Of a stretch of DNA of 57,949 nucleotides, positions 369 to 48,591 are shown in pieces (the stretch's first letter is position 1; each line of letters starts with the position of its first letter). The notes under the pieces are model-generated. The model did no database searches. It was not told where the DNA came from and worked only from the letters and a program-made list of their open reading frames with translations. Source of the DNA: a bacterium. GTDB lineage: Bacteria > JACRDZ01 > JAQUKH01. The position numbers were made by a program, and so were the translations under genes. The stretch is from NCBI GenBank assembly GCA_028719205.1, contig JAQUKH010000014.1, forward strand, positions 1 through 57,949. The letters are read 5' to 3'.

Positions 369-419
369 GTAGGGGCATCTGCCCAAATTAAGAGGGCGAA
401 CACATGGGTTCGCCCCTAC
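369..419. repeat. GTAGGGGC...GCCCCTAC composite palindromic element, intergenic copy
   Basis: Two adjoining hairpins, GTAGGGGCATCTGCCC and GGGCGAACACATGGGTTCGCCC, are bounded by GTAGGGGC and GCCCCTAC. The reverse complement matches, block for block, the longer element at 7221-7293 that lies inside the aminopeptidase gene. Here it sits between the stop of the RuBisCO-like gene and the start of the next gene. Confidence 0.85.
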
Positions 420-423
420 AATA

Positions 424-1731
424 TTATTTCGCCAGGTCATACCCTTTGCTTTTATCCCCGACAACGCCCCATTTTTGGATAGCCGCGTTTAATTCTTTAT
501 TTTTCTGACAGGCTTTCTCCAGCGGGATATTTTTCATTTCAGCTTCAATTGCCTGATGGAATGCCTTAACTCCTGCCTTAAGGCCCATCGGATGCCCGTG
601 AACTCCGCCGCCCGCCCCAATCAGAATATCAGTCCCGACATCATTCATCAATTTCCCGATCAAACCGGCATGAATCCCGGCCGAAGGGCATGGGAACACC
701 CTGTTCAGATGATAAAACGGCGAAAGTAATTCCTGCGCGATCCTGATGATCCTTTCTTTAAGCATTAACACCTTTCCGTAATGGCTCGGATAAACAACCA
801 TATCCGCCCCTGACAATCTCGCCAGTTTTCCGAGGACCAGATTTGAGCTCAATCCATAATTAGGCGATTCAAACATCGCACCGGCAAAATCCGGATGGCT
901 TAAGATCGGAACATTTATGCTTTTATCTTCAGCCAGCGCGCTCATCGCGGAAAAACCAACAGTATAAGTGTTGACCATCAGGGAATTCGCGCCGTTCTTT
1001 ATAGCCTTATGCGCCTTTTCAAACATCCTGTCATGGTTGTCGGTTATATTCACACTATACAAAACTTTTCTGCCGGTCTCGCTATAAATTTTTTCCGTCA
1101 TCTTTAAGCAGATCTCCAACCGCTCCGGAACAGTACAATAATCCGGATCAGCCAGCAGCTCATCATCCTTTATAATATCCACGCCCGCCATGCCTAATTC
1201 AAAAAACATTTTACCAAGCGCTTTAGGCGCCAGGCCCACACAAGGCTTAAACATAACCATAACCAGCGGCCGGTCCTTAACCTTCAATAACTTTCTCATT
1301 CCCTCAACCCCGAATTTAGGGCCGTTATAATTTTTAATATATGATAAAGGAAAATGGATATCCAGAAGCTTTAATTTCCCGGCCATGGAAATATTCCCGT
1401 AAAGCGCGGTTAAAACCTGCGGTATCTGCCCGTTTATATTTACAACCGGGAAACCGAGCATAAAAACAAAATTCCTGACCTTATTTTCAGGCAGGGCATC
1501 TTCATAATTCGGTATTTCATAAAGCCCAAGCACCCTTGCCCCGAATTTTTCAATTACATCTTCAGTCTCTTCAGGGACTTTGGTCCAGGTCCCGGTTGAC
1601 TGCTCTAAAGCCAGCGCCTCTACTTTTTTTAAAATATCATCCGTGGCAGTTTCGAGATGATATATGCCGATTATATAATCTTCCTGGTTTATGCCTTCTT
1701 TAATAGTAAAAAGTTTGCTGTTCAGATACAT
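424..1731 (-). CDS. RuBisCO-like protein (form IV type)
   Basis: 435 residues, the usual length for a RuBisCO large chain. The fold is clear from GTWT (47-50), MFKPCVGL (160-167), GVDIIKDDE (183-191), ILSHPDFAG (276-284), YGK (318-320) and AGIHAG/GAGGG (351-376). Compared with carboxylating RuBisCO, the carbamylated Lys and the metal ligands are kept (K188, D190, E191), as are equivalents of K175 (K162), H294 (H279) and K334 (K320), but the K177 position is Cys164 and the R295 position is Pro280. Loss of these substrate residues is typical of form IV proteins such as the 2,3-diketo-5-methylthiopentyl-1-phosphate enolase MtnW, which enolise rather than fix CO2. A GGAG site precedes the ATG. 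No other methionine-salvage gene is in view, so the substrate is open. Confidence 0.88.
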   Translation of the reverse strand: MYLNSKLFTIKEGINQEDYIIGIYHLETATDDILKKVEALALEQSTGTWTKVPEETEDVIEKFGARVLGLYEIPNYEDALPENKVRNFVFMLGFPVVNINGQIPQVLTALYGNISMAGKLKLLDIHFPLSYIKNYNGPKFGVEGMRKLLKVKDRPLVMVMFKPCVGLAPKALGKMFFELGMAGVDIIKDDELLADPDYCTVPERLEICLKMTEKIYSETGRKVLYSVNITDNHDRMFEKAHKAIKNGANSLMVNTYTVGFSAMSALAEDKSINVPILSHPDFAGAMFESPNYGLSSNLVLGKLARLSGADMVVYPSHYGKVLMLKERIIRIAQELLSPFYHLNRVFPCPSAGIHAGLIGKLMNDVGTDILIGAGGGVHGHPMGLKAGVKAFHQAIEAEMKNIPLEKACQKNKELNAAIQKWGVVGDKSKGYDLAK

Positions 1732-1740
1732 ATTTTCTCC

Positions 1741-1994
1741 TATAATAAGTCACAAGTTTTAAAGTCACCAAGTCACCAGTTAAAAACAATAACTCGTATT
1801 TTGTGATTTGATATTATATCAATAAAATCCAAAAATAATCTATTATTAATTTTCCCAAATATAATTTTATTAATTTTTGTAAAAATTCAATATACAAAAC
1901 AATCATTTTTTATTACAATATATGGAAAATAAGTTACAAAACCACCAGCTTTATTACTTGCTTGTGACTTGTGACCTTGTAACTTGCAACTTTT
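1741..1994. repeat. intergenic spacer with TTGTGAC-type heptamer repeats at both ends
   Basis: Between the RuBisCO-like gene and tRNA-Ala the spacer is AT-rich. Degenerate heptamers lie at 1747-1784 (GTCACAA/GTCACCA orientation) and 1957-1994 (TTGTGAC, TTGTAAC, TTGCAAC orientation). The same repeat family recurs in at least eight other spacers of this window. No coding signal is seen. Confidence 0.75.
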
Positions 1995-1997
1995 AGT

Positions 1998-2073
1998 GGG
2001 GCTGTAGCTCAGTTGGGAGAGCGCCTCGTTCGCAACGAGGAGGCCGTCAGTTCGATCCTGATCAGCTCCACCA
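1998..2073 (+). tRNA. tRNA-Ala (anticodon CGC)
   Basis: 76 nt with encoded CCA. The acceptor stem GGGGCTG pairs with CAGCTCC and contains the G3:U70 wobble pair that is the alanine identity determinant. D arm GCTC/GAGC, anticodon stem CCTCG/CGAGG with loop TTCGCAA (anticodon CGC at 2031-2033, reading GCG), and T arm GTCAG-TTCGATC-CTGAT all fold. Confidence 0.97.
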
Positions 2074-3142: not shown

Positions 3143-3182
3143 AACTTGACTGGAACCCATTTTAGGGATAGAATGTTGCTTC

Positions 3183-4117: not shown

Positions 4118-6859
4118 ATGAAAAATAAACTTATTTGGTTAGTTTTTATCTTTTTTGTCTTTACCTCCTGTTATCAGGCAAGCGAATGGTATCAGACGCT
4201 CGAAAGTGATTTCAATATAGGGCTAAAAGAAAATATAGATACCCAAACTGATCCCGACCAGATCCAGCTTGCGATCAAAAACACGGGGAAAAAAGTATAT
4301 AACCTGTTATCCAGAAAAAATGGCGCGATAACCCAGTTTTTCCCGAGTGAATATACAAAAAGTTTTGACTCGGGCCCGGGCCAATTCCTTTTTGTTAATG
4401 ACGGCATAACTGACGCGGGGCTGAACAAAAATGCCAACTACCAAATAAGCGCTTACCTTTCAGATGACCTATCCGCTTATTCAAATCCTTTTCCTCAGGA
4501 TTTTATATTTAGCCTTCCCGAAAAGCAAACGATCTCCACATTTGTCCTGTATAACGGGCCGGGCAGCGACGCGGGCGGCGCGGATTCTGAAATTAATAAT
4601 TTCAAGCTGTATAGCAACAACGATGTTGTCACGCCGGACGATATACTTTCTATTGAAGAAGACGGAGGAGGCTGGTGTTATAAAGGTGTTTCAGGAGAGG
4701 ATATTGTTTTTCAGCCGCTTTCGCCAAAAAATGTTTTTGGCGACATTCCATTCGCTTCAAAACAAAAAAGCAAAGAGTTCTCGCGCGATACATGGGTTCA
4801 ATCTAAAGACCTGGAATTTAATTTAAATAAAGAAAATCCGAAATGGATCAAAATATATTTTAAAAAACCCACGGAAATTTCAAGTATATTTATCATGAGT
4901 GATGATGGGGCTAATGTTGACAATTTAGAAACAGATATATTCAATTTAGAAATTATCGTTCATTCTAACTCCTACGGGGACGAATCAGTATATGATAACA
5001 GCGATAATAAAATTGTGCAAAATGACTATTCCAAGGGCTTTTATAAAATATTCAATCCCGTATTGGCAAACGCGGTTACTATTAAATTCCACAGCCCAAA
5101 ATATGTTGAATGGCAAAAACTGATCATTTTTAAATCCCCATGGAAGGAAATAGTATCCGCAAAAGCCGATATCAAAGACAAGGATTACTCTCCTCAAGTA
5201 TTTACCTTTAATGCCACTGAACCATTTCAATATTTCAGATTATCGGTAGAAAGTAATCACGGAAACAAACGCTGGTTATCTTTTGGAGAAATAGAGGCGT
5301 ATTCTATCCTTCCCAAAAATATTGCCTCCTCTAAGAACGGAAGGGCTAAAATAATGTATACCACGCGCGGAGAAGGAAAAGAAATGCCTATGTCCGTGCT
5401 CAATAACGGGAAAATAACCTATAATGAAGGTTTTAATTTCGGTTTAGAACGGCCTGATACACTGCAATACGCTATTCTTGACCTCGGCGGAAGAAAAACA
5501 TTCAATCAGATCGCGCATTGGAATTGCGGCTGGTATGGGGCGCGTTCTGTAACGATTTATGCAAGCATGGACCTGGAAAATTGGAATAAAATAGGTTTGT
5601 ATGAAAACCTGAATTTAAGCAGGCCTCAAGCTGTTAATAAAGACACCTTTAACTTTGAACCTGTATCCGCGCGTTATGTAAAATTTGAATATAACTCAAA
5701 CAGCTGGAATTCTTATACCCTCAGAATAAGCGAATATGAAATTTTTTCCTGTCCGGTAGAATATGATCCATCCGGTTTGTATGTATCGCCTGTTTTAAAC
5801 TGCAAGCAGCCCGTAAAAATGGAATCGATCTCTTTCAACCAGGAACCGGAAGGCGATATTCCGTTAAATACTTCTATTGAACTTACCATAAAATCAGGAA
5901 CAAATAATAATTTATCCGGTACCCAAGCAATAAACACCTGGAAATTTGAAAATAATAACATCCCGAAAAGTATCTCTTTATCAGACAGCCATACAGGCAA
6001 TCAATATTTCCAATATCATGTAAAATTTAACACAAACATTCCGTTCATTACTCCGGTATTCAGCGATTTTAACCTTATTTACAAAACTCCGCAGGAACTT
6101 TACGCGGACGCGAATTATTGTTATGATATTGAAAAATATGAAGAGGCTTTAAAAAATATAAATATTTTCATCGAAAACTTTTCCGGGCAAACATGGATAG
6201 ACAAGGCTGCCGTTGACCTGAAAACCGCTATTTTACTCAAGATCGATGAAAAAGCTCAAAATATTTTTGATAAAGGAATGCAATCAGCCGGAGAAAATAA
6301 TCTGGAAATGGCGCAAAGAATATTACAATCAATTATCGCGCAATATCCGTCAAATAGTTTTAACGATAAAATTAAAATCCAGCTTGAAGAAATTGAAGCT
6401 CAAAAACAATATCAGGAATTAGTTTCTTCCTTTGAGAAAGATCCTGAGAACACAAGCATAAAATTAAAAGGCCTGTCAAATAATTTTCCTAAAACCAAAT
6501 GGGGGCAAACGGCTAAAGAAAAAGCTGAAGAATTTCTGGAAATAAAAATTAAAACATTATATGAACAAGGCATAGATCTTTTTAACGATAACAAATTCAT
6601 CGCGGCAAAAGGAATATTTGAAAAATTAATTGAAAAATTTCCTTTAAGTTCTTATGTCCAAAGAGCGGAGAACCAGATACTGGTCTGTAATGATAAAATT
6701 TTAGAGGATATGTTTTTCAAAGCATCTTCTTTATATAAAGAAGGCAATACGAAAGAGGCCGGCGAAATACTTTTTGATATGATCCAGATAAATCCCGGAT
6801 CCGAGTGGATAAAAAAATTACAAGGGATAATAGAAGAAAAAAATAATGAAAATAAATGA
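4118..6859 (+). CDS. lipoprotein with discoidin-like domains and C-terminal TPR-like repeats
   Basis: About 913 residues. It begins with a lipoprotein signal ending FTSC (lipobox Cys18). Residues about 90-350 hold jelly-roll-like segments of discoidin type (ISTFVLYNGPGSDAGGAD ... FKLYSNND). Residues about 400-550 are a clear F5/8 type C (discoidin) pattern: LDLGGRKTFNQIAHWN, ARSVTIYASMDLENW, SARYVKFEY, LRISEYEIF. The last 250 residues are helical repeats like YbgF/BamD TPRs (AQRILQSIIAQYPSNSF, AAKGIFEKLIEKFPLSSY). An outer-membrane-anchored carbohydrate-binding or envelope scaffold role is inferred. An in-frame GTG at 4112 overlaps the previous stop; ATG 4118 is preferred because it gives the compact signal peptide. 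The stop overlaps the aminopeptidase start. Confidence 0.8.
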   Translation: MKNKLIWLVFIFFVFTSCYQASEWYQTLESDFNIGLKENIDTQTDPDQIQLAIKNTGKKVYNLLSRKNGAITQFFPSEYTKSFDSGPGQFLFVNDGITDAGLNKNANYQISAYLSDDLSAYSNPFPQDFIFSLPEKQTISTFVLYNGPGSDAGGADSEINNFKLYSNNDVVTPDDILSIEEDGGGWCYKGVSGEDIVFQPLSPKNVFGDIPFASKQKSKEFSRDTWVQSKDLEFNLNKENPKWIKIYFKKPTEISSIFIMSDDGANVDNLETDIFNLEIIVHSNSYGDESVYDNSDNKIVQNDYSKGFYKIFNPVLANAVTIKFHSPKYVEWQKLIIFKSPWKEIVSAKADIKDKDYSPQVFTFNATEPFQYFRLSVESNHGNKRWLSFGEIEAYSILPKNIASSKNGRAKIMYTTRGEGKEMPMSVLNNGKITYNEGFNFGLERPDTLQYAILDLGGRKTFNQIAHWNCGWYGARSVTIYASMDLENWNKIGLYENLNLSRPQAVNKDTFNFEPVSARYVKFEYNSNSWNSYTLRISEYEIFSCPVEYDPSGLYVSPVLNCKQPVKMESISFNQEPEGDIPLNTSIELTIKSGTNNNLSGTQAINTWKFENNNIPKSISLSDSHTGNQYFQYHVKFNTNIPFITPVFSDFNLIYKTPQELYADANYCYDIEKYEEALKNINIFIENFSGQTWIDKAAVDLKTAILLKIDEKAQNIFDKGMQSAGENNLEMAQRILQSIIAQYPSNSFNDKIKIQLEEIEAQKQYQELVSSFEKDPENTSIKLKGLSNNFPKTKWGQTAKEKAEEFLEIKIKTLYEQGIDLFNDNKFIAAKGIFEKLIEKFPLSSYVQRAENQILVCNDKILEDMFFKASSLYKEGNTKEAGEILFDMIQINPGSEWIKKLQGIIEEKNNENK

Positions 6860-8051
6860 AATTAAACAAATTCATAATTTATTTTCTAAAAATCTTGCCG
6901 TTAAAAAGAATGAAAACATATTGATATTCACGGATGCGAATGATCTCCCGCCTGCCGTCCGCCTGCCGGACGGGCAGGGACGGGCAGGTTCGCCCCTGCA
7001 AGAAATCACACAATTGATCGCGGAGGAAGGAAAAAAATTCGCGAATATAATACTTCATGTTTATCCATCAACAGGATCACACGGAGCGGAACCCCCGTTA
7101 TCGCTGTGGGAAATAGCTTTTGGCAGAGAAATAACCGGTAAATTCAGAAAACAAAAAATTCTCCGGCCGTTATTAAATAAAACGGCCACAGAAAAACAAA
7201 TTAAAATGGCGCATCGTATTGTAGGGGCGAACCCATGTGTTCGCCCTGTACCATTACGCCCTGTTTTGGGCAGACACATGGATCTGCCCCTACATCAAAA
7301 AATAAACGCCGTCATCGCCCTGTCCCGGTTTTCAACCACGCATACAAATTTCAGAAAACTTCTGACACAGTCTCTTGGTGTCCGGTATGCCAGCATGCCT
7401 CTTTTTGACGCTGAAATGCTTTCCGGCCCGATGGCCGTTGATGTCAATAAAATGGCTAAGAAAACTATTTCCATGGCAACAAAGTTAAGCCGCGCGAATA
7501 AAGCTCTGATCACTTCTTCCGATGGAACAAATCTTCATTTTAGTTTAAAAAAACGCGCGGGACAAGCGGATACCGGAATATTAGTAAAGGCCGGCGCAAT
7601 GAGCAACCTTCCCGCGGGCGAAGCTTATATCGCGCCGGTTGAAGGAACTGCGGAAGGAAAGCTTGTTGCCAAATTCAGCCAAACCAGAAAATTAATAAAA
7701 CCTTTAATATTCGAAATTGAAAAAGGAATGGTTAAAAATATTTCCGGAGAAAAAAAAACCAGCGAAAGACTTGAAAAGATCTTTGATAAATTTCCTAAGG
7801 CTCGCGTTTTAGCTGAATTCGGCATCGGAACTAACGAAAAGGCCAAACGGCCGGATAACATCCTGGAGGCAGAAAAGATCCTCGGCACAATCCATATTGC
7901 CTTTGGAGATAACTCAACGTTCGGCGGGAAAAATAAAGTGCCGTTCCATGAAGATTTTGTAATCTTTAAACCAACCGTAAAACTCTATTTTCAAGGCAAA
8001 AAAACTTTAACACTGATCAACCAAGGAAAAATAAAACTACCGGCACGTTAG
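6846..8051 (+). CDS. M29-family aminopeptidase with two in-frame palindromic insertions
   Basis: 401 residues. The C-terminal half is a good match to family M29 (thermophilic aminopeptidase T/AmpS): NLPAGEAYIAPVEGTAEGKL (255-273) and LAEFGIGTN ... EAEKILGTIHIAFGD ... PFHEDFVIF (322-373). Candidate metal ligands E259/E267, E324, H350, H368 and D370 are present, so a two-metal cytosolic aminopeptidase is plausible. Residues about 35-51 (PPAVRLPDGQGRAGSP) and 126-150 (VGANPCVRPVPLRPVL...) are encoded by GC-rich palindromic repeats also found in intergenic DNA. The reading frame is kept through both. The N-terminal half matches the family less well, and the insertions may weaken the enzyme. The gene overlaps the lipoprotein gene by 14 nt. 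Confidence 0.82.
   Translation: MKINEIKQIHNLFSKNLAVKKNENILIFTDANDLPPAVRLPDGQGRAGSPLQEITQLIAEEGKKFANIILHVYPSTGSHGAEPPLSLWEIAFGREITGKFRKQKILRPLLNKTATEKQIKMAHRIVGANPCVRPVPLRPVLGRHMDLPLHQKINAVIALSRFSTTHTNFRKLLTQSLGVRYASMPLFDAEMLSGPMAVDVNKMAKKTISMATKLSRANKALITSSDGTNLHFSLKKRAGQADTGILVKAGAMSNLPAGEAYIAPVEGTAEGKLVAKFSQTRKLIKPLIFEIEKGMVKNISGEKKTSERLEKIFDKFPKARVLAEFGIGTNEKAKRPDNILEAEKILGTIHIAFGDNSTFGGKNKVPFHEDFVIFKPTVKLYFQGKKTLTLINQGKIKLPAR
6946..6999. repeat. coding palindromic element (CGCCTGCCGGACGGGCAGG type) in the aminopeptidase gene
   Basis: Nested palindromes built of CCTGCC/GGCAGG and CCGGACGG, ending GTTCGCCCCTGCA, are translated in-frame as part of the M29 aminopeptidase. A very similar core (CGCCTGCCGGACGGGCAGG) is intergenic at 39117-39135. 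Confidence 0.8.
7221..7293. repeat. coding GTAGGGGC...GCCCCTAC composite element in the aminopeptidase gene
   Basis: Starts GTAGGGGCGAACCCATGTG and ends GGATCTGCCCCTAC, with two inner hairpins. It is the reverse-orientation counterpart of the intergenic copy at 369-419. It is read through in-frame for about 25 codons. Confidence 0.88.
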
Positions 8052-8068: not shown

Positions 8069-8175
8069 GCCCCTATGCTCCATGCTTTCTTCACTTGTGA
8101 CTTGCCTGCCCGCCGTAGGAGGGTGACTTTGCAACTTCCGACTCTTTTTAACGCCATGCTCTATGCCCCATGCTT
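8069..8175. repeat. mixed heptamer repeats between aminopeptidase and lptD
   Basis: ATGCYCY-type heptamers (8069-8092 and 8152-8174) flank TTGTGAC/TTGCAAC-type heptamers (8091-8140). The latter are themselves interrupted by a short GC-rich palindrome (GCCTGCCCGCCGTAGG). The aminopeptidase and lptD are convergent across this spacer. Confidence 0.8.
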
Positions 8176-8176
8176 T

Positions 8177-10810
8177 TTATATCTGATCCCGTACCTCAAG
8201 ATATCTTTCTTTGCCTATCACCCCGAATTTTTTATCCGGAAACGCCTTCAGAGAAAGCGTAAGCCAGAACTCCACGTCTTCCGGAATCCCAAGCTTCGCT
8301 ATTTGTTTCCTGATGGAAAATTCAGCCTCCCAGCAATGAAGGTCGCGTTTCAGGGCGACTTTATATTGATCCAGCTTAAAATCTCTCATACGCGGGACAT
8401 AAATATTATCGTTGCGAAAACTGCCGATGAAGCTGCCTTCCCAATACCGTGTAAGAGGAACCCTTACAAGTGAATCTACGGTAGCAAAACTATTATTCGG
8501 ATAAAAATAGGTAAGGTTATGTTTATAGGTAAGATCCAGATACGTGGCCGGCGCGTAGTGAAGAGTGCTTTCAATGGATTTCAATTTACCCTTTCTCAAG
8601 GCCTGGACATTACCGGGATAAGTCGTATCGCTGACAGGATAAGTTATATCGGTACTGTCGCAATAGATATCGTATATTATAACCGTCTGCAGGTCGAAAT
8701 AATCTTTAGGACGCGCGGTTATATTTATATTCAGGTCATTAAATTTTGATTTTCTGTTTTCAACCGGAACTTTTTCGTCTTCGATTATTATTTTTTTTTC
8801 AGTCGTGTCATAATGAGATTTACGTTTTCTTCTTATGTCATAACCGATGCCCGCGGTAATAGTCGTTCTATAAAAAATAGTCCTGGCATTAAACGGTGAA
8901 TTCAAGGTCAACGAAGTAGATAAAGTATTTGTAACTATTCCTTTATAGGGATCTTCCTCGATCTCCTGCCATTGCCGCTTATATGAATGCGTGTTCTGCC
9001 ATGTAATGTAATCTGTAATTCTTGTCGAAAGCGTTCCCTGTGTGTCAAAACTGCTCACACGCCGCTGATTAGGGTCAAGCAAGCTCTTTTTATCGCGCCA
9101 ATCTTCGTTATAACCGACAGCCGGCATAAAAGAAATATTTATCAGCCGGCTTTTAAAAATTTCAAAATTAGTCTGCAATTTTTGGTATAAATTCGCGGTC
9201 TGGGTGCTGAATTTAGTAGCATACTTTATTGTGATCCTGTCCCGAGGATCCAGCTTAAACGGCCCGGAAAGTTTTCTTACCGTAATTTGTTTTTTTTCAT
9301 AATCTATAAAAACTATTTCTACCGGAATGTTATATACTATTGGAGAATTAGGATTAATATTAAGATTCACAGAATTATCACTGGCAAACGCGGATATAGT
9401 TCCTGTAGAAGGAAATGTCGCAAGCGTGACAATATAAGTGTCAGTATTTCCCGCGTCCGGGTTAAGGTCATCTTTCACTACATCAAAGGACTCTCTTCTG
9501 TCGCCGCGGTCATAGTTTATTACATAAGTAGCGTTTAGACTGTAATTTATCGCCGGCGTTGTTCTCCCGACCTGCGTGGGTAAAAGAGTAAAAGAAACAT
9601 CAGGAAGCCTTTCTTCGGTTTTTTTAAATTTCTTCAGGTCATCATCCCATAAATTTCTCTGGAACGTGGCTACCCGAAAAACAATATTGGGATATTGAAC
9701 AGTCGTGATATCAAAACTGGAATTAATATCTTTCGTAGCGTCACTCGCGCTTTCAATTTCTTTTGTGTACGCCGTATTACTTCTATAATGCAGGTCTAAT
9801 TTCGAATCTACTGTTAATTTATTTTCCTTTACCGTTTCTTTTACTATTGTTGTTTCTATTATCGTTGTATCTATCGCTGTTGTATCTATTGCCGTTGTAT
9901 CTATTGTATTGTAGGTAGTTTCAAAACTTGTACTTTCATATAACATTTGTTCATAATTCGCGTCCGCCTTCCATTCTTCAGCTACAGGCCCGGTATATGA
10001 ATAATCATCATTAGGATTCTCTGTTATTACCTTGCTGAAATATATAAATACTTTTCCCTTCCCTTTCCCTGAAAATAAAGTAAAATTGTGATCAATACCT
10101 GTTCCCCAGCCGACAAACTGCCACCAATCAATATAATAATTACCGCTATTATTATTACTAAAAAAATAGTCATATTTTGCCCGCAGGATAAGCCCTTTTC
10201 GTTTGTTATAGCCTACTTTATAATGCCAGCGGTTTTTATCATCTAATTTCTTTGTATAAAAAGGGAAATAGATCGTAGGAACATCTTTTATCATAAAAGA
10301 TACTTCCCTGCATACTAACCTTTTTTTGGGATAAAGTATTATTTCTTTGGCCCTGAATTTATAATGTGGAGACGGATTATCGCAGGTAGTAAAAAGGCTC
10401 CTCCCTGAAGAATAAAACTCATTTTTATCCACCTGTTCCATTTCCTCATTGGTATATGACCACGGTTCTATCCTGGAACTGGATTTTTCCATTGTGCCCT
10501 GATTTTTCTTTATATTGTAATTCAATGCCTCGCCTTTAAGTGTATTATCTTTTTGAATAAGCGAAACATTTCCTTCCGCGTTGATATTATCAGTATCAAC
10601 ATAAAACTTCATATGATCTGCCTGGAGCCTTGTCTCCCCCTGGGACAGATCAACATTTCCCTCGCCGACAATAAGATTCTCCTCCTCAATGTATTCCAAT
10701 TTGTCTGCTTTGATCTTTACAGGAACGCTCTCCGATGTATCGAAAGCATAGATTGATGGTGAAACTAATAATATTAAAATAATAAATAGTTTTATAGTTA
10801 ATTTTTGCAT
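8177..10810 (-). CDS. lptD: LPS-assembly protein LptD / OstA family
   Basis: 877 residues from the ATG at 10808-10810, which follows directly on the folC 3' end. Signal peptide (KLTIKLFIILILLVSPSIYA), then an OstA/LptA-like beta-taco at about 25-140 with the typical repeats VKIKADKLEYIEEENLIVGEGN, LQADHMKFYVDTDNINAEGN and LKGEALNYNIKKNQG. LptD core blocks follow (FTTCDNPSPHYKFRAKEI, VPTIYFPFYTKKLDDKNRW), and a long C-terminal region of alternating residues suits an outer-membrane barrel. The family inserts lipopolysaccharide into the outer leaflet with LptE. Near position 9864-9908 three 15-bp tandem repeats encode a TAIDT-type low-complexity loop. Upstream in-frame ATG 10858 lies inside folC and is not preferred. 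Confidence 0.9.
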   Translation of the reverse strand: MQKLTIKLFIILILLVSPSIYAFDTSESVPVKIKADKLEYIEEENLIVGEGNVDLSQGETRLQADHMKFYVDTDNINAEGNVSLIQKDNTLKGEALNYNIKKNQGTMEKSSSRIEPWSYTNEEMEQVDKNEFYSSGRSLFTTCDNPSPHYKFRAKEIILYPKKRLVCREVSFMIKDVPTIYFPFYTKKLDDKNRWHYKVGYNKRKGLILRAKYDYFFSNNNSGNYYIDWWQFVGWGTGIDHNFTLFSGKGKGKVFIYFSKVITENPNDDYSYTGPVAEEWKADANYEQMLYESTSFETTYNTIDTTAIDTTAIDTTIIETTIVKETVKENKLTVDSKLDLHYRSNTAYTKEIESASDATKDINSSFDITTVQYPNIVFRVATFQRNLWDDDLKKFKKTEERLPDVSFTLLPTQVGRTTPAINYSLNATYVINYDRGDRRESFDVVKDDLNPDAGNTDTYIVTLATFPSTGTISAFASDNSVNLNINPNSPIVYNIPVEIVFIDYEKKQITVRKLSGPFKLDPRDRITIKYATKFSTQTANLYQKLQTNFEIFKSRLINISFMPAVGYNEDWRDKKSLLDPNQRRVSSFDTQGTLSTRITDYITWQNTHSYKRQWQEIEEDPYKGIVTNTLSTSLTLNSPFNARTIFYRTTITAGIGYDIRRKRKSHYDTTEKKIIIEDEKVPVENRKSKFNDLNINITARPKDYFDLQTVIIYDIYCDSTDITYPVSDTTYPGNVQALRKGKLKSIESTLHYAPATYLDLTYKHNLTYFYPNNSFATVDSLVRVPLTRYWEGSFIGSFRNDNIYVPRMRDFKLDQYKVALKRDLHCWEAEFSIRKQIAKLGIPEDVEFWLTLSLKAFPDKKFGVIGKERYLEVRDQI
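9864..9908. repeat. three tandem 15-bp units inside lptD
   Basis: Units GTTGTATCTATCGCT, GTTGTATCTATTGCC and GTTGTATCTATTGTA follow without gaps and code for a repeated T-A-I-D-T pentapeptide in the predicted barrel region. The 15-bp period keeps the frame, so copy number can vary without destroying the gene. Confidence 0.85.
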
Positions 10811-12162
10811 AACGCCTTTCTCGCCTCTCCCACCGTGTAAAGCGACCCGGTAATGCAAATAATCTCATTTTTTTGGACGACCCCTTGCAGGCGCCGGATC
10901 AACCCTACCATTCTTTTGATCGCCTTTCTTATCGGATAAACTGCTTCAACATCTTTATGATACTTTCTGACGATCTTCGCCTGTTCATCTAAAGAAGATG
11001 CCCTGTCGCAATGGGGAGAGGTAACTATGATTTTATCCGCAAGCGGCATAAGTTCTTTCACAATACCGGATATATCCTTATCCTTTAATATTCCCAAAAT
11101 AAAATTTATTTTTTTGTCAGGGAAATATCTTCTAAGGCTTTTAGCTAATACTGAAGCACCCGGTGGATTATGCGCGCCGTCTATTATTATCGTCGGGGCA
11201 CGGCAAACAATTTCAAAACGACCGGGCCATTTCGCGTTTTTCAGGCCTTTTCGGATATCATTCAAATTTATTGTAATGGCTCCGATTTCGGAGTCCCTAC
11301 CTAAGATTTCAATAACAGCAAGCGCCATTGAGGCATTTTGTATCTGATATTCACCTAAAAGGCTTATATCATAATCCGTTGAATTTTCATAAATACCTTT
11401 ATAAGAAAATTTCTGGCTTATAGGGACCCGAATCCCTTTTTTCAGGGCGGGCACCTGCCTGCCGGACAGGCGGGCAAGACCCGCCCCTACAAAATCTTTG
11501 CTTAAAAGATATATTTTGGAATTCTTTTTTTTACATATTTTTCTGATGACATTTAAAGGCTCTTTTTCCGTAACCCCACAAACAAGCGGCACATTTTTTT
11601 TGATTATCCCCGCTTTTTCAAACGCGATCTTTCCTAATGTATTACCTAATTCCTTTGTATGGTCAAACCCAATGCTTGTAATAATGGAAACTAACGGCGT
11701 AATTACATTTGTCGCGTCCAGCCTTCCGCCCATTCCAACCTCAATACAGGCAAAATCGACTTTTTCCTCTTTAAAATACTCGAACGCGATTGCCGTTGAA
11801 ACCTCAAAATAGGTAAGATCTCCCAATTTATTATTTGTTTTTCTCACCAGGGGGATCAGCTTTTCAACAATTTCCGTTAACTTTTTCCGGGGAATTAAAA
11901 CACCATTGATCTGGATCCTCTCGCGGAAATCAACCAGATGCGGAGAGGTATAAAGGCCTGTCTTTAAACCCGATTCTTTTAAAACCGAGGCGATAAAACT
12001 GGAGGTTGAACCTTTCCCGTTCGTCCCTGCAATGTGGATCGATTTGAAAGTGTCCTGGGGATCATTTAATAACGACAGGAGATAGGTTATCTTTTCTAAT
12101 CCGAACTGGATCCCAAACCTTTCAAGGCTGTATAAAAAATCGATTGCTTTATCATAATTCAT
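10798..12162 (-). CDS. folC: bifunctional folylpolyglutamate/dihydrofolate synthase
   Basis: 454 residues from ATG 12162 (MNYDKAIDFLYSLERFGIQFG, the usual N-terminus; ATG 12192 would add 10). P-loop AGTNGKGS (45-52), SPHLVDFRERI (73-83), EVGMGGRLDATN (141-152) and the C-terminal Mur-ligase motif IDGAHNPPGA (327-336) are all present. FolC adds glutamate to folates with ATP in the cytosol. Three GC-rich palindromes are translated in-frame: residues about 224-240 (VGAGLARLSGRQVP), 242-248 (KGIRVPI) and 287-296 (LGRDSEIGAI), all in or near the linker between ligase domains. The 3' end overlaps the lptD start by 13 nt, so the pair is one operon. Confidence 0.95.
   Translation of the reverse strand: MNYDKAIDFLYSLERFGIQFGLEKITYLLSLLNDPQDTFKSIHIAGTNGKGSTSSFIASVLKESGLKTGLYTSPHLVDFRERIQINGVLIPRKKLTEIVEKLIPLVRKTNNKLGDLTYFEVSTAIAFEYFKEEKVDFACIEVGMGGRLDATNVITPLVSIITSIGFDHTKELGNTLGKIAFEKAGIIKKNVPLVCGVTEKEPLNVIRKICKKKNSKIYLLSKDFVGAGLARLSGRQVPALKKGIRVPISQKFSYKGIYENSTDYDISLLGEYQIQNASMALAVIEILGRDSEIGAITINLNDIRKGLKNAKWPGRFEIVCRAPTIIIDGAHNPPGASVLAKSLRRYFPDKKINFILGILKDKDISGIVKELMPLADKIIVTSPHCDRASSLDEQAKIVRKYHKDVEAVYPIRKAIKRMVGLIRRLQGVVQKNEIICITGSLYTVGEARKALCKN
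11281..11490. repeat. cluster of three coding palindromes in folC
   Basis: On the coding strand: (i) GTAGGGACTCCGAAATCGGA (about 11283-11303, hairpin CTCCG/CGGAG); (ii) AGGGATTCGGGTCCCT (11422-11437); (iii) 11444-11490, a GTAGGGGCGGG start, CCTGTCCGGCAGGCAGG core and CCGCCCT end. All three are read in-frame. Their flanks GTAGGGRC match the intergenic elements of this window. Confidence 0.78.
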
Positions 12163-12301
12163 AAATTTTCTAGTATTATAGCTCAATTCCATGTTTTTTT
12201 TAAGAAATTATTGCCAAAATTCACAAAAATAATTAGCTTTACAATACACAAAATCAGGTATATACTATATTATTAGAAGTTAGGAAGTGTATAAAAGAAA
12301 A

Positions 12302-25306: not shown

Positions 25307-26149
25307 CTATTTTTCAATCAATCTACTGATCGTTGAATAATGCATACGTAAATAGTCCGCTATTTCCTTCTGGCTGTAACCATATTTTTTTATCGCCTCA
25401 TTGATCAGCTCATTCCTGGTTTTTTTCTTAATATCTTTATTTCCAAATAAAACTTCCAAATCTGGCCTGGCCAGATATCTTTGTTTTTTTGGGATTTCCT
25501 TTATATCTTTATTGCCTGCCAGATATTCTATCAGTTTATCCGTGAATTTCTGCCCTCCCAATATACTCTGGCCTTTTACTTCTTCCCATATAGATCCCTG
25601 CCCTTTACCTTCCCTTACAAACTCCATATACTTTTTTCTCGCTTCCTTTTCCCTTTTCCCGAATTGGCTCAATATCCAATCCACAGTTAACCAATTCTCA
25701 GTTGTTTTCAGCCCCGCCGTACTATTGTAACTGCTCCAATTCCATTTTTTAGCTTTCTCTACCATTCCCGCTCTTACCGGATTCAACACTACATATCTGC
25801 TTACTTCCAATAAATAACTGTCTCTCTCTATCACTATTGCTTTATATCTCCCTTGAAATATATGCCCCGCGCTTTTATGCCGTTTATTATAAGCTTGCGT
25901 ATATACTCCATTTATATGCCTCATCCCTTTCGATAAATTACCATCCGGGGTTTCTAATATCAGGTGAAAATGATTATCCATTAAACAATAGCCGTGACAT
26001 ATCAGGTTGTAAGATATTACAGCCTGTTTTAATATTTTTATAAATGTATTCCGGTCAATATCATCCTTGAAGATATCTCTCTTAGCATTGCCTCTGGATG
26101 TTACATGATATATCGCTCCTTCATATTCTATTCTTATTGGTCTTGCCAT
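25307..26149 (-). mobile_element. REP-associated tyrosine transposase (RAYT, Y1/IS200-like) gene
   Basis: 280 residues. N-terminal ARPIRIEYEGAIYHVTSRGN, the HUH motif (CLMDNHFHLI, His60 and His62), and the Y1 region HIFQGRYKAI ... SYLLEVSRYVVLNPVRAGMV with Tyr119 as candidate nucleophile place it in the RAYT group of Y1 transposases. The C-terminal 40 residues are a DnaA-like helix-turn-helix (NEAIKKYGYSQKEIADYLRM HYSTISRLIEK). RAYTs bind and cleave single-stranded REP palindromes. Upstream, TCAGGTCTTTAATCTTGACA marks the joint with the truncated flavodoxin copy. The nearby ~80-bp palindromes are candidate substrates. Confidence 0.9.
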
Positions 26150-26461: not shown

Positions 26462-27985
26462 TTACAATCCCTTGAGAATTCCCACTAAATATTTTTGTGA
26501 TCTTTTTGGATTATCCTCTGCTTTATTTGAAATTATGTTTATTGCTTTTTGATATTTATCGATTCCATATTCATTAATTAATGAAATTATATCCTCAACG
26601 ACAACGAGGTCGTTTTCTTCAAAAACAACTTTGGCGAATTCTCTCGCCTGATCGACCTTTTCCGCGCCGTACAAATTTTTTAAATTCTCGAATTTTTTAG
26701 CTTGTTCTATTGGATCGTATAGATCAAACAATCTATATTTCGATGGCCCTCTTGATTCATAACCGTCTTCAATATCAGAATATTCTATATCAATAATTTC
26801 AAATTTTTTTAATTCCGTCATACCGCTGCTTATAGTCTTTGTATTTGAATTAAAATGATTACTAAGGGTCTCGCGAGGGTAACTCCACCAAGGGATATCC
26901 TTGTTCAGGCTTGCTTCATATAGATTGATCAGGTAACAAAATTTACCGGTAAAAGAAAGCCTTCTGTCCCATCCATAACTGAAATATTCTCCGGGCAGGG
27001 TAAAATACTTTTCTTCGGGATATTTATATGGTTTATCATTATTTTCCGGATCGAGTAATGTAACTTTTGCGTTCTCTCCGTATTGCGTTTCATATTTTAT
27101 AAGATTATATGTGTCCTTTAACTTCTTTAATGTTTCGGTGATCAGGCTTCTGTAAGGAGTTTTACCCGTATCTTTATCGATTCCCAGATACTCTGCCATT
27201 TTTTCAAAATCAAAGTCAATAAAACCATCTCCCTTAAATTCCCGCAATAATAAAAGATAAAGGTCAAACGCCCTTTCATCATGTATATTTAGCATTTTGC
27301 CGGCTAAATTTTCATTTTCTAAAAAATATCTATATATTGCAAACGAAGGTTCCTTTTCTTTTATATCTCCGCTCATCTCATGATCAATAACAATTTCAGA
27401 AAAATCTTTAATTAGTGATCTTGCCAGTTCTTTTGATCTTATTACTACAGATGCCTCATTATTTTTATTAAGTGCGGAGTCCGACCAGTTGGTACTTCCC
27501 AATATAACTATATTTTCGTCCACGACTATGACCTTGCTATGTGTATGTATGGCCTTTGTATCATATAATACATCAATCTCATTTTTCTTGAAAAACCTGA
27601 AAGCATTTTGATTTCCCCCCTCATTCTGCCATTCATCCCCGCTATCCAACCGCTTGTAATCAATAGTCTGATCCAATATAACCTTAACTTTAACCCCGCG
27701 CTTTTTTGCATTAACCAGGCTTTCGCATAGTTGATATACTTCTGACTGCGTATTTTTTTCGTCAATGCTGACGAGGTACATGGCCATGGATATGGATTTT
27801 TGGGATTTATCAAGGATTTCTTTGACAGCGGGATAATATTTTCTGCCGCTGATATTGGTAATTTCCGCTTCCCGTAGGGGCTCAACATTTTGAGCCCTTA
27901 TTGAATTGGATGTAATTATGGATATTAGGAGAAATAGGATGATAAATATTTGTTTTGTATTTTTACACATTAGAATATTATACAT
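26462..27985 (-). CDS. exported phospholipase D-like protein with winged-helix-like C-terminal half
   Basis: About 507 residues. A hydrophobic N-terminus (QIFIILFLLISIITSNSIRA) looks like a signal peptide. Residues about 45-190 are a PLD domain with one HKD motif (HSKVIVVDE followed by GSTNWS), so catalysis would need dimerisation, as in Nuc-type nucleases. Residues about 200-507 look like helical/winged-helix DNA-binding repeats (EKMAEYLGIDKDTGKTPYRS, LSNHFNSNTKTISSGMTELK) of the type found in plasmid Rep or replication-related proteins. Start choice among TTG 28000, ATG 27985 and ATG 27970 is unclear, as no ribosome site is obvious. If the N-terminus is a true signal, a DNA-binding domain outside the cytoplasm would be odd. 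Confidence 0.72.
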   Translation of the reverse strand: MYNILMCKNTKQIFIILFLLISIITSNSIRAQNVEPLREAEITNISGRKYYPAVKEILDKSQKSISMAMYLVSIDEKNTQSEVYQLCESLVNAKKRGVKVKVILDQTIDYKRLDSGDEWQNEGGNQNAFRFFKKNEIDVLYDTKAIHTHSKVIVVDENIVILGSTNWSDSALNKNNEASVVIRSKELARSLIKDFSEIVIDHEMSGDIKEKEPSFAIYRYFLENENLAGKMLNIHDERAFDLYLLLLREFKGDGFIDFDFEKMAEYLGIDKDTGKTPYRSLITETLKKLKDTYNLIKYETQYGENAKVTLLDPENNDKPYKYPEEKYFTLPGEYFSYGWDRRLSFTGKFCYLINLYEASLNKDIPWWSYPRETLSNHFNSNTKTISSGMTELKKFEIIDIEYSDIEDGYESRGPSKYRLFDLYDPIEQAKKFENLKNLYGAEKVDQAREFAKVVFEENDLVVVEDIISLINEYGIDKYQKAINIISNKAEDNPKRSQKYLVGILKGL

Positions 27986-28076
27986 TATATGAATTTTCAA
28001 TGGTGGGATTTTTAACGAATACGGAAAGATTAAATTTTCTTTAATAACAAAATAAATTTAGATGTTCTTTATAAGA

Positions 28077-28387: not shown

Positions 28388-28783
28388 TTATACATCCTCC
28401 ATAAAATATTTTCATTATTATAACACTAATTATAACGTCTATTAATCAAAATCTTTTAATAATTATACCACACTGATGGAATGAAATATCTTCTGCCCGA
28501 AAATCCCTGTTATTTAAAGAGATTTTTCTTGTAGGTGCATTTTAGCGGCTCAAGCTGTTTAAACGGTTCAAGCGGTTCAAACGGAATTTATTTAAAACAG
28601 TATATTTATTCCAACAGACACGCTGATATGGTTTTTAACCGCATCTGACACACTTTCACCTTTGAGGATACTTGCGATCGTTTTTTCTGTTCCTCAAACT
28701 TCCGACTTCTGATCTTATGACTTTTCCTAAACTCTATGCCCTATGCTCTATGCGCCATGCCTCTTCACTGGTGACTGGTGACT
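28388..28783. other. gene-free stretch with simple repeats
   Basis: About 400 bp. 28551-28590 holds a short run of the type GCGGCTCAAGCTGTTTAAAC / GGTTCAAGCGGTTCAAACGG. 28702-28783 holds both heptamer families (ATGCCCTATGCTCTATGCGCC and GACTGGTGACTTT). No ORF with a ribosome site was seen. Confidence 0.6.
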
Positions 28784-28894
28784 TTACAACTTGTGACTTT
28801 TTTTGTTGTCTATATTTTTTCTGATGAGTTTTTTAACTTCGTTCCCAACAAGCTTTGGGATTTGTTTTTTGATTTCATCGGTTATTTTTTCCAT
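28784..28894 (-). CDS. very small ORF whose 3' end is heptamer repeat
   Basis: 36 codons: MEKITDEIKKQIPKLVGNEV, then KKLIRKNIDNKKSHKL and stop. A purine-rich stretch (AGGAAGAACAGAAGAG) lies upstream of the ATG. The last codons, SHKL and the stop, come from a GTCACAAGTTG heptamer repeat. It may be the N-terminal remnant of a longer protein truncated by the repeat. Confidence 0.35.
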   Translation of the reverse strand: MEKITDEIKKQIPKLVGNEVKKLIRKNIDNKKSHKL

Positions 28895-28930
28895 TTATTT
28901 TTTCTCTTCTGTTCTTCCTAGCTTTTATCT

Positions 28931-29082
28931 TTACTTGTGACTTGTGATCTTGCAACTTGTAACTTTATTCCTGCTGGTGACTTGTGACCTGGTGCTCTGG
29001 CGACTTATTAATAGATTATATCAAAGATTTGGATTGGTATTAGAATATTTTTTATTCGTAGGGGCGATCCGGCGGGTCGCCC
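28931..29082. repeat. heptamer array plus GTAGGGGC palindrome
   Basis: 28931-29003 has TTGTGACTTGTGATCTTGCA and related heptamers. 29058-29082 is GTAGGGGCGATCC-GGCG-GGTCGCCC, an intergenic member of the palindromic family. The plus-strand ORF across this stretch is repeat-derived and not listed as a gene. Confidence 0.75.
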
Positions 29083-29166
29083 TTTTAATGTATTTTTTGA
29101 ATAATTTTGAAGCAGATTATAAAAAGTCAACTCTTTTAATCTCTTAGCTACGTGATACTTGATCTA

Positions 29167-38972: not shown

Positions 38973-39102
38973 TTCTTTCTATCCGGAAAAGCCGGGAATA
39001 TTATTGAAAACATTTACTTGTCCCTCTAATTTTAAGCAATTATTTAATTTCTATTTTATCCCTTTTCTCCTCATAATTCCATTCATTTTTAAATAATTAA
39101 GA

Positions 39103-39192
39103 GGGCGTATGCCACCCGCCTGCCGGACGGGCAGGTACGCCCCTACGAATTAAATACGGACAAAAAAGGGCGAGTTTAGAACTCGCCCCTAC
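39103..39192. repeat. two adjacent palindromic elements (GGGCG...CGCCCCTAC)
   Basis: 39103-39145: GGGCGTATGCCACC, CGCCTGCCGGACGGGCAGG, TACGCCCCTAC. 39168-39192: GGGCGAGTTTAGAACTCGCC then CCTAC. Both belong to the family also found inside coding genes. They lie in the 39-kb spacer. Confidence 0.85.
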
Positions 39193-41014: not shown

Positions 41015-41155
41015 AAATAAGTCACAAAGTCACAAGTTACAATGTCACAAGTAACATAAATAAGGGCACAAGTCACAACGTCACAATGTCACAAGCAACA
41101 ATCAAAAAAAGTCACAAGTTTCAACGTCACAAGTGACATACAAAAACAGGTTACA
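41015..41155. repeat. array of GTCACAA-type heptamers
   Basis: About 140 bp of AAGTCACAAAGTCACAAGTT, ACAATGTCAC, AACGTCAC units, the reverse orientation of TTGTGAC. It fills the gap between tRNA-Ser and the next gene. Confidence 0.88.
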
Positions 41156-41561
41156 GGCTTTTATGGAAATTCCATAAAAGTTTTCCGACTTCCTGACGTA
41201 AGGCTTGCAACATTCTATTTGTTTTTTCGTCCAAATATCCCAACTTTAAAGAAAAATCTAATAGGTACTCAGTTTCCGCAAGAGAACCTAATGCTATATT
41301 TACAAACTGCTTTAACTCTTTCCTGCCTTGTCGGCCGGATCCTTCAACAATATTAGTTGGAACTGATAATGCGGCTCTTCGCAATTGTGAAGTAATCCCG
41401 TAAATTTCTTCCTTTGGAAATCTTTTTGTTTCTATATATACCTTAAATGCTAATTCGTCCGCCTTGTTCCAAACCAGCAAATTTTTATAACCATATTTTA
41501 CTACTTCTTTTTCTTGTTGTTGACCTTGTAACCTTGCTGTTTGTAACATTTCGATTTTCAC
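41151..41561 (-). CDS. four-helix bundle protein (23S rRNA intervening-sequence type)
   Basis: 136 residues. KNLLVWNKADELAFKVYIET, RFPKEEIYGITSQLRRAALS VPTNIVEG and KQFVNIALGSLAETEYLLDF are the four-helix bundle signature (TIGR02436 type, first seen in 23S rRNA intervening sequences). Found widely as a stand-alone gene of unknown function. The first ~16 residues (LQTARLQGQQQEKEV) come from a heptamer repeat, so the natural start seems to have been replaced by repeat-derived codons. It is followed on the same strand by tRNA-Ser and preceded by another small gene. Confidence 0.85.
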   Translation of the reverse strand: MKIEMLQTARLQGQQQEKEVVKYGYKNLLVWNKADELAFKVYIETKRFPKEEIYGITSQLRRAALSVPTNIVEGSGRQGRKELKQFVNIALGSLAETEYLLDFSLKLGYLDEKTNRMLQALRQEVGKLLWNFHKSL

Positions 41562-41575
41562 AACTTATTTCGTTC

Positions 41576-41670
41576 TTCACTCTTTACCGGTGACGTTGTG
41601 ACCTTGCAACTTTCAACTTTTCTTGCTGGTGACTTTGTGACCTTAAAACTTGTGACTTTGTGCCCTTGCC
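41576..41670. repeat. TTGTGAC-type heptamers overlapping a gene end
   Basis: TGACGTTGTGACCTTGCAAC and TTGTGACTTTGTGCCCTTG units. They encode the last residues (AQSHKF) and stop of the upstream gene. Confidence 0.82.
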
Positions 41671-44946: not shown

Positions 44947-45134
44947 AAGTCGCAAAGTCACCAGTCACAACGTCACCAGCAAATACAAAGAGGTCGCAAT
45001 GTCACCAGTTTTAAGAAGTCGCAAAGTCACAATGGTTGCAACGTCACCAGTATTAATTCTTACTTGTGACTTTGACACTTGTCACCTACGACTTATTGTG
45101 CTTGTGACTTGTGACTTTGAAACTTGTGACCTTT
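44947..45134. repeat. long array of TTGTGAC/GTCACAA heptamers
   Basis: About 190 bp of alternating-orientation units (AAGTCGCAAAGTCACCAGTC; CTTGTGACTTTGACACTTGT). It separates the solute-binding protein from the FlgO/VCBS gene and contains no ORF of its own. Confidence 0.88.
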
Positions 45135-45135
45135 T

Positions 45136-46572: not shown

Positions 46573-47360
46573 TTTTTTAAAACCAATTCTTTATACAAAT
46601 TATAAAAATCACCGGCCGAGAGATCTTCAGCCCGCAAATTAGTATCCAAATTTAATGAACCGAATACCTTTTCAACGTCCTCTTTTTCTTTTTCCAGATG
46701 CCCCGCTATAACCTTCGCGGCTTTTTTTCTCCTGAACTGGAACGATTTCCTGACAAAAGAAAAAAACGTTTCTTCATCATCCATAGCGATCAGCGGTTTT
46801 TCCCTGACCGATAATTTCACGATCGCGGATTCTACCTTTGGCGGCGGTTTAAACTTTTCCCTTCCGACAAAACCGACTATCTCAACATCCGTATAAAACT
46901 GCGTAAAAATGCTTAAGGAACCGTAATCTTTGGTCCCCGGTTTCGCGCCTAATCTTTCAGCCACTTCCCTTTGTATTAAAAATACGATATGGGTAAAATA
47001 TCTAATATTTTCAAGTAACTTAACTACCAGAGGGCTTGTAAGGTAATAAGGGATATTCCCTATAACTATCGCCTTTTCAAATCCATTTTTCTTTATCAAA
47101 GACGGAAGATCCAGTTCCAGGATATTTCCGGATATTATCTCTAAATTATCATGTTTTGTAAACGAAAGAACCCTGACCAGGTCTTCATCAAGCTCGACAC
47201 ATAAAACCTTTTTAGCCCGTGTTATCAGATGTTTTGTAAGCTGTCCCTTGCCCCCTCCGACTTCGATCACAAGATCATTTTTAGTTATCTCTGCCGCTTG
47301 CGCGATCTCTTCAAGCACGCTTTCATCACGTAAAAAATGCTGGCCCATCGGACTGCCCAT
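46569..47360 (-). CDS. rsmA: 16S rRNA (adenine1518/1519-N6) dimethyltransferase
   Basis: 263 residues from ATG 47360 (MGSPMGQHFLRDESVLEEIA). A longer frame to 47438 exists, but its N-terminus would be translated ATGCYCY heptamers (LHALCFSPHAPCSMRHA) and is rejected. SAM motif I IEVGGGKGQLTKHL, motif IV IGNIPYYLTSPLV, and the C-terminal helical domain FSFVRKSFQFRRKKAAKVI. RsmA dimethylates two adenines in helix 45 of 16S rRNA. It follows pdxA as in the surA-pdxA-rsmA order of proteobacteria. The ribosome site is inside a hairpin (47364-47385). Confidence 0.95.
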   Translation of the reverse strand: MGSPMGQHFLRDESVLEEIAQAAEITKNDLVIEVGGGKGQLTKHLITRAKKVLCVELDEDLVRVLSFTKHDNLEIISGNILELDLPSLIKKNGFEKAIVIGNIPYYLTSPLVVKLLENIRYFTHIVFLIQREVAERLGAKPGTKDYGSLSIFTQFYTDVEIVGFVGREKFKPPPKVESAIVKLSVREKPLIAMDDEETFFSFVRKSFQFRRKKAAKVIAGHLEKEKEDVEKVFGSLNLDTNLRAEDLSAGDFYNLYKELVLKK

Positions 47361-47363
47361 TAA

Positions 47364-47385
47364 TTTTTGCCTCCGGCGGCAAAAA
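47364..47385 (-). promoter_or_regulatory. hairpin holding the rsmA ribosome binding site
   Basis: On the minus strand TTTTTGCC, loop GCCGGA, GGCAAAAA, then ATTA and the rsmA ATG. The Shine-Dalgarno GGAGG (plus positions 370-374) straddles loop and 3' stem, 9 nt before the start, so folding would mask it. It could be a thermosensor-like or attenuating hairpin, or simply one of the many palindromes in this genome. Confidence 0.5.
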
Positions 47386-47654
47386 GCATGGCGCATAGAG
47401 CATGGAGCATGGGGGGAAAAGCATAGAGCATGGAGCATAGAGCATGGCGTTTAGGTTTATATGTTAAACCATACGCCATGCTCCATGCACTATGCGCGTT
47501 ACCTTTGTCTCTTGCTATTTGCACCATATTTTTATTCTTTACTTTTAACTCTTTGCGCAATGCGCTTGCTTTTCTCTCTTTACTCCATGCGCCATGCCCT
47601 ATGCTCCATGCGCTTTTCTCTTATCTTCACCCTATGCTCTATGCGCCATGCTCT
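47384..47654. repeat. ATGCYCY heptamer array between rsmA and pdxA
   Basis: Period-7 units such as GCATAGAGCATGGAGCATGG (47384-47459) and ATGCTCCATGCACTATGCGC (47470-47500), with a third block at 47585-47654 (ATGCGCCATGCCCTATGCTC). The pdxA C-terminal residues (SMAHRA) and stop are inside the last block. Confidence 0.88.
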
Positions 47655-48591
47655 TTACCATTTGTGTTGCGAGCTTGATCGCCGCTTCCATACTCCCCGT
47701 ACCCGCGATGCCTTTTCCGGCGATGTCGAACGCGGTCCCGTGGTCAACGGAAGTCCTTATGAACGGGAGGCCCAAGGTTATATTTACCGCGTTGCCGAAA
47801 GACGCCATTTTCAAGGGGATCAAACCCTGGTCGTGATACATCACTATCACCGCGTCATACATACCCTGATTTGCCTTTACAAATAAAGTATCTGACGCAA
47901 ACGGGCCTTCCACGCGGATATTTTCTTTTTTCGCTTTTTTAATGGCCGGCTCGATAAATTCAGCTTCTTCCCCGCCAAACAACCCGCCTTCACCTCCATG
48001 AGGATTTAAACTGCAAACAGCGATCAGCGGCTTTTTTTTACCGAACCACTTGGTCAATCCCGCGTTCGCTATTGAAATCTTCTCATAAATTTTATCCGCG
48101 GTAATATTACGCGCGACATCCCTTAGTGCCATATGGGTCGTAACCAGCACCACCCTGATCTTTCCGCCCGCGAGCATCATCGCGAATTTTTTAGTCTTTG
48201 TTAAATGCGCCAGATATTCCGTATGCCCGGGGAATTTCAGCCCCGCAAGGCTAACCGATTCTTTATTTATCGGGGCCGTTACCATTGCCTGGATATCGCC
48301 TTTTCTAATTAATTCCACGGCTTTATCAATATATTCTATAGAGGCTTTCCCGGCTTGAGCGCTTATTTTACCAACAGGTATTTTTTTGGGATCGGCATTT
48401 TTCAGGTCAATAATATTTATTTTGCACAAGGGCGAACGGCCGTTCGCCCCTACAACAAAAAACCTTTTATCGCCAATAACCAGAGGAACACATATCCTGT
48501 TAATATTTTTGTTTAATAATATTTTGCCGATTATTTCAGGCCCGATCCCGGCGGGATCGCCCATTGTTATGCCAATAACAGGTTTACCCAT
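47632..48591 (-). CDS. pdxA: 4-hydroxythreonine-4-phosphate dehydrogenase
   Basis: 319 residues. KPVIGITMGDPAGIGPEI at the N-terminus, TAPINKESVSLAGLKFPGHTEYLA (metal His), VTTHMALRDVARNI, NPHGGEGGLFGGEE and YHDQGLIPLKM cover the PdxA signature and its Zn ligands. It makes the amino-ketone precursor of pyridoxal phosphate with NAD. Residues about 47-57 (VGANGRSPLCK) are encoded by a perfect 20-bp palindrome with a GTAGGGGC flank, inserted in-frame near the N-terminus. The start overlaps the foldase stop by 1 nt; C-terminal residues come from heptamer repeat. Confidence 0.95.
   Translation of the reverse strand: MGKPVIGITMGDPAGIGPEIIGKILLNKNINRICVPLVIGDKRFFVVGANGRSPLCKINIIDLKNADPKKIPVGKISAQAGKASIEYIDKAVELIRKGDIQAMVTAPINKESVSLAGLKFPGHTEYLAHLTKTKKFAMMLAGGKIRVVLVTTHMALRDVARNITADKIYEKISIANAGLTKWFGKKKPLIAVCSLNPHGGEGGLFGGEEAEFIEPAIKKAKKENIRVEGPFASDTLFVKANQGMYDAVIVMYHDQGLIPLKMASFGNAVNITLGLPFIRTSVDHGTAFDIAGKGIAGTGSMEAAIKLATQMVKSMAHRA
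48430..48455. repeat. coding palindrome in pdxA
   Basis: GGGCGAACGGCCGTTCGCCC (48430-48449) is a perfect 20-bp palindrome, followed by CTACAAC, so on the coding strand it begins GTAGGGGCGAACGG. Same family as 369-419 and 7221-7293; read through in-frame. Confidence 0.9.

Follow-up and report, generated by a model that had tools for sequence, protein, structure and literature searches.

The window, the whole 57,949-nt stretch analysed here, is contig 14 (C14) of a 2.59-Mb bacterial genome in 68 contigs (G000); places on other contigs are written as, for instance, C26:1628-2209. As a sequence-only reading of the window had proposed, one family of palindromes lies both in spacers and inside genes, namely an M29-like aminopeptidase gene, folC and pdxA. 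Its tag, GTAGGGGC/GCCCCTAC, matches ten times in the window (at 369, 412, 7221, 7286, 11483, 27874, 29058, 39139, 39185 and 48446) versus 0.76 expected, and ten matches were reached in 0 of 100 shuffles. The units, which we call REPs, and their surroundings are as follows:

369-384, forward strand: truncated REP, partner of the full REP at 393-419
393-419, reverse strand: GTAG REP of the GAACCCATGTGTTC stem class, intergenic, full unit
6846-8051, forward strand: host gene, M29-family aminopeptidase-like, 401 aa (Pfam PF02073, 1.1e-9)
6949-6999, reverse strand: degenerate REP of composite type that encloses a CCTGCCGGACGGGCAGG palindrome; lies in frame within the M29-like peptidase gene (PPAVRLPDGQGRAGSPLQ)
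7221-7293, forward strand: BIME, composed of REP 7221-7247 (+) and inverted REP 7268-7293 (-)
10798-12192, reverse strand: host gene folC (PDB 1o5z, 1.2e-81; Mur ligase domains)
11278-11300, reverse strand: degenerate REP GTAGGGACTCCGAAATCGGAGCC in folC, peptide GRDSEIGA
11444-11490, reverse strand: folC REP enclosing a second palindrome (11449-11478); reads VGAGLARLSGRQVPAL
25307-26149, reverse strand: RAYT of the window, a 280-aa protein of the long form bearing a C-terminal HTH (NCBIfam NF047646, REP-associated tyrosine transposase, 87 bits)
27874-27898, forward strand: REP close to the N-terminus of a PLD-domain gene (26462-28000)
29058-29083, forward strand: lone intergenic REP
39102-39146, reverse strand: REP in a spacer, enclosing a CCTGCCCGTCCGGCAGGCGGG palindrome
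39167-39192, reverse strand: lone intergenic REP
47632-48591, reverse strand: host gene pdxA (Pfam PF04166, 1e-109; PDB 2hi1)
48429-48453, reverse strand: lone REP in pdxA, read VGANGRSPL

Each REP unit consists of GTAG at one end only plus GGGCNNNN-loop-NNNNGCCC, with an 8-bp stem whose outer four pairs are near-constant and whose inner four vary with pairing preserved. Three G-C pairs form the base of the stem. The window REPs fold as single-stranded DNA hairpins (DNA z-scores of -2.5 to -6.6), and the GTAG foot stays unpaired in seven of the eight predicted folds. The elements had been described as GC-rich hairpins bounded by GTAGGGGC and GCCCCTAC: the hairpin is there, but a single unit has no second foot, and the two-ended elements are either inverted pairs such as 7221-7293, which reads in frame as VGANPCVRPVPLRPVLGRHMDLPLH, or ‘double-foot’ REPs. 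The copies named in that reading proved real; those at 6949-6999 (aminopeptidase) and 27874-27898 (PLD-domain gene) had been missed. Likewise, the element placed at 369-419 resolves into one full and one truncated REP, and the single element assigned to folC 11283-11490 is in fact two, the nested-palindrome REP and the degenerate one, 143 bp apart. The nested palindrome is a second one, CCCGCCTGCCGGACGGGCAGG, seen in the loops of several REPs (window 6953-6982, 11449-11478 and 39110-39139; C18:29520-29565). The PLD-domain gene has a relative at C7:82597-84111 with a REP at the matching N-terminal place, as if the two had been co-duplicated.

The family extends well beyond the window, as had been anticipated. 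The pattern GTAGGGGC-N6-30-GCCC gave 92 genome matches, 46 per strand, against four for a reversed-pattern control, and a covariance model trained on 50 units identified 96 REP units. The invariance of GTAG in the alignment is built into the selection pattern, and the covariation of the inner stem pairs (0.684 vs 0.142 shuffled) was computed on input already filtered for hairpins. The unbiased figure is the count of complementary inner bases, on which the pattern made no demand: 82 of the 84 units with sufficient loop had four of four. Many REPs form inverted dimers (BIMEs), the commonest combination being GAACCCATGTGTTC with AGACCCATGTGTCT. A search with a strict double-ended pattern of fixed spacing returned no matches because loop lengths vary and most units are one-footed.

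Using DNA fetched around each match, we merged the pattern matches into 65 loci, at most 19 of which lie inside long ORFs. Given a coding density of 85%, as measured in the window, REPs are strongly depleted within genes. Nine loci fall within conserved genes: the three window genes, a sulfatase (C13:716), hisF, dnaX, a B12/radical-SAM protein, valS and ackA. At two further loci, a gene on C23 and a lipA-like gene, the REP forms the C-terminus, and RAYT genes hold three. The remaining five are close to annotated N-termini, a setting for which the main text of Di Nocera et al. 2013 (PMC3733652) advises caution; by our own choice of start, three of the five probably precede the true start codon.

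Every coding copy is stop-free, and in the aminopeptidase, folC and pdxA genes we found neither stop nor frameshift, in agreement with the sequence-only reading. This is no proof of targeting, since copies that broke the frame would disappear; we infer that the open frames reflect survivorship, and that REPs landing in genes would persist solely in tolerant loops where the frame stays open. Of the 11 copies that are clearly coding, eight use the VGA frame (p = 2e-4 under equal use of five frames), a preference to which we give no weight, as the cases are few and RAYT copies use several frames.

We then compared the units with known systems. As described in the main text of PMC3733652, members of the GTAG REP superfamily have a GTAG foot at one end, a 6-13 bp stem, complementary stem variants and inverted dimers; they are mostly intergenic near gene ends, with some in frame in conserved genes, and occur in many phyla. 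The units here share this anatomy: an unpaired GTAG at one end, covarying stems, and tens to hundreds of dispersed copies and inverted dimers. The string GTAGGGGC and the lineage of the window were not found in the main text of that paper. The long REPs, the stem base of three G-C pairs and the double-foot form further match the subclass 2.4 REPtrons of Quentin et al. 2018 (PMC6006769), and from the description given there we found no defining difference; here REPs also sit in housekeeping genes.

A Y1_Tnp family search returned three proteins in the genome. By its motifs (NHFH, FQ, YVVLNP) and its length, the RAYT of the window resembles subclass 2.1, which appears without REPs in the account of Quentin et al. 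2018 (PMC6006769). It lacks the features of subclass 2.4 (YIxNNP, ~194 aa, a REP inside or adjoining the gene), and we found no internal or flanking REP at 25307-26149. Its closest homologues among 41 genomes come from hosts with 0-4 REPs. On this check it was rejected as the enzyme that moves the REPs, and we consider that it is probably not the cognate one.

The short RAYT P0001 (193 aa, C26:1628-2209) behaves differently. It matches TnpA_REP subclass 2.4, published as short RAYTs of ~194 aa with NH[IFV]H, WQ and YIxNNP (PMC6006769): its own motifs are PNHFH, LWQRNYYEH (WQ) and YIINNP. It also matches the solved TnpA_REP structure 4er8. According to the same paper, subclass 2.4 tnpA_REP genes carry REPs in frame between HuH and Y, and in the C26 gene, too, the segment separating the HUH and Tyr motifs contains an in-frame REP dimer, with the reading VGADPCVCP...GEHMGSPLP. 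The sequence-only reading had named the same peptides at the same positions in unrelated phyla as a refutation; for the RAYT gene itself this is what we found, but owing to the known habit of REPs lying in RAYT genes. All three RAYT genes of the P0001 clade in the genome hold an internal REP between the motifs, and at least 54 of 80 P0001 homologues from many phyla have a REP hairpin in the stretch that separates HUH from the W/Y motifs, a lower bound given a strict hairpin detector. The TAG-closed GTAG frame is used in none of 83 readings of RAYT-internal REPs. At C40:6961-7535 we noted a third RAYT gene of subclass 2.4 type with an internal REP, apparently split into two frames.

Enzyme and element also co-occur. 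Of the 41 genomes, 12 encode a P0001-type RAYT and 11 of these carry REPs, against five of the 29 RAYT-negative genomes (Fisher p = 1.4e-5). For those five (G006, G018, G024, G035 and G037), loss, incompleteness or another enzyme has to be assumed. The covariance model found 98 copies in G003, a genome of the same phylum, and 113, 103, 95, 73, 54 and 37 in six genomes of other phyla. The reach of GTAGGGGC REPs, and likewise of RAYT genes with internal REPs, is extended to many phyla. Altogether, we are confident that the elements are GTAG REPs of the subclass 2.4 kind, present as single units, double-foot units and BIMEs, and that the C26 RAYT is the likely mobilising enzyme. Judging by the published biochemistry of other RAYTs, this enzyme, encoded outside the window by a gene that itself bears REPs, would bind the GTAG hairpin as single-stranded DNA, cleave near it and then transfer it.

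This leaves very little room for the proposal that the window holds mobile, protein-coding palindromes of a family that is independent and restricted to its lineage, comparable to the Rickettsia palindromic elements (RPEs) and spread by the window RAYT. In-frame copies in several conserved genes and a RAYT encoded in the window spoke for it, and like RPE-4 and RPE-6 of Rickettsia the units are short palindromes found in frame in many genes and between genes. However, the main text of Di Nocera et al. 2013 (PMC3733652) places RPE-4/RPE-6, which lack an associated transposase, in a separate CGTC group, whereas the units here carry GTAG and track a RAYT. The claim of a structurally different family fails on the anatomy, on the 37-113 copies in other phyla and on that publication, which defined GTAG REPs and described in-frame intragenic copies in several species; the window RAYT, with its subclass 2.1-like motifs, REP-free flanks and homologues in REP-poor genomes, is a poor agent for it. 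What stands is the suggestion that a Y1 enzyme spreads the elements, with the C26 RAYT, which tracks the REPs, in place of the local one. Thus neither the element nor its in-frame habit is new: an apparently exotic ‘protein-coding palindrome’ falls into a known system, and the probable enzyme is not the nearest one.

One result is less ordinary: at many sites, two related species both retain a REP but with the stem sequence swapped. We compared the sites with one congener, G001, whose compared proteins are 62-90% identical. In hisF, the radical-SAM gene and the C23 gene the REP is absent from G001, and the valS site has a different filler. Where a coding site is empty in G001, the REP is never the sole difference: flanking low-complexity DNA changes too. 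A G001 palindrome with a different stem occupies the same place at both M29 peptidase sites, at two sites in folC, and in ackA and lipA. At the peptidase site 6949-6999 G001 carries GGGGCGAATGATTATCCGCCCC; at 7221-7293 it has just one REP, at the same codon but with an unrelated stem; and at the folC site 11278-11300 it has GCAGGGGTGTTTCACGAACCGCCCCTGC. Both dnaX REPs are kept, and in pdxA a REP with another stem lies nearby, read in another frame. Between genes, where the comparison was run using 38 short flanks, the REP is missing from G001 at 17 of 25 compared sites. Four sites keep their stems at least partly (C4:54009, C32:765, C47:553 and C13:48826), and at four more (C2:82035, C3:78773, C13:18027 and C29:3930) G001 also has a REP in that place, but its stems are unrelated. 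Over coding and intergenic shared sites, about half of the REP units have stems that are unrelated yet palindromic in G001. The 16 units that were aligned show 27 differing stem pairs: in 18 both sides have changed and still pair, in four one side has changed, and five are broken. This is unlike point decay alone, which would give chiefly one-sided changes.

From the aligned sequences, in-place replacement of one REP by another seems the preferred reading of the shared sites. We tentatively propose, as a possibility we hold with some reserve, that REP positions, coding ones included, are long-lived slots in which the resident is swapped for another REP, so that stems turn over while the frame is kept. 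The swap could come about through action of the RAYT on REPs already present, or through hairpin-templated copying. If this is true, REP sites are conserved like slots while their occupants change. A precedent is the REP orthoswitch of Pseudomonas and Stenotrophomonas (Nunvar et al. 2013, PMC3686654), where the REP class changes at an orthologous place; as described there it concerns RAYT-flanking REPs and old dispersed copies decay, whereas here dispersed copies appear to be exchanged. Site-by-site stem exchange was not found described in the main text of PMC3733652. Shared sites with exchanged stems predict REP-by-REP replacement, which gives a handle on how REPs spread and can be checked in close strains.

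The two-sided changes with pairing kept, and C13:48826b, where a single compensated pair differs, would also be expected if the sites were old and fixed and acquired new stems by mutation and hairpin-templated (quasipalindrome) correction. We regard this as rather unlikely: at the second M29 site, C3:78773 and C29:3930, stem, loop length and monomer/dimer state differ jointly, which fits whole-unit exchange better. Less likely still are independent insertions in both species at a common preferred target. RAYTs and their relatives do have short target preferences (PMC8266576), and many sites lie directly after stop codons; however, several coding sites agree to the codon with their flanks aligned, and repeated coincidence of such precision would require very strong site specificity. 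That the peptides are conserved functional segments, with palindromes arising from codon bias, is scarcely credible: some sites are occupied in both species, but the peptides differ between them, G003 folC and solved homologues lack them, and the same DNA is also found between genes.

Finally, REPs share some places with short-period repeats. At the 393-419 site (C14:392) G001 has no REP and an AAACCGTTTAAACCG repeat instead, and this site is among five intergenic REP gaps (with C9:47856, C31:4581, C5:45056 and C6:11120) where G001 has a AAACCGTTTAAACCGTTTGAAC repeat with a period of ~9. These gaps look like slots open to some repeat. In the window, short-period CTTGTGACTTGTGACC-type repeats occur at 1947-1993, 28754-28966, 41016-41145, 41503-41656 and 45049-45133, and such repeats also accompany REPs as in-frame sequence in hisF (KKVTSHKLPVTSEKQ), valS and dnaX. 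Short-period GCATAGAGCATGGAGC-type repeats lie at 8071-8179, 28735-28766 and 47381-47657; those at 47381-47438 overlap the predicted N-terminus of an rsmA/ksgA-like ORF (MLHALCFSPHAPCSMRHAFC).
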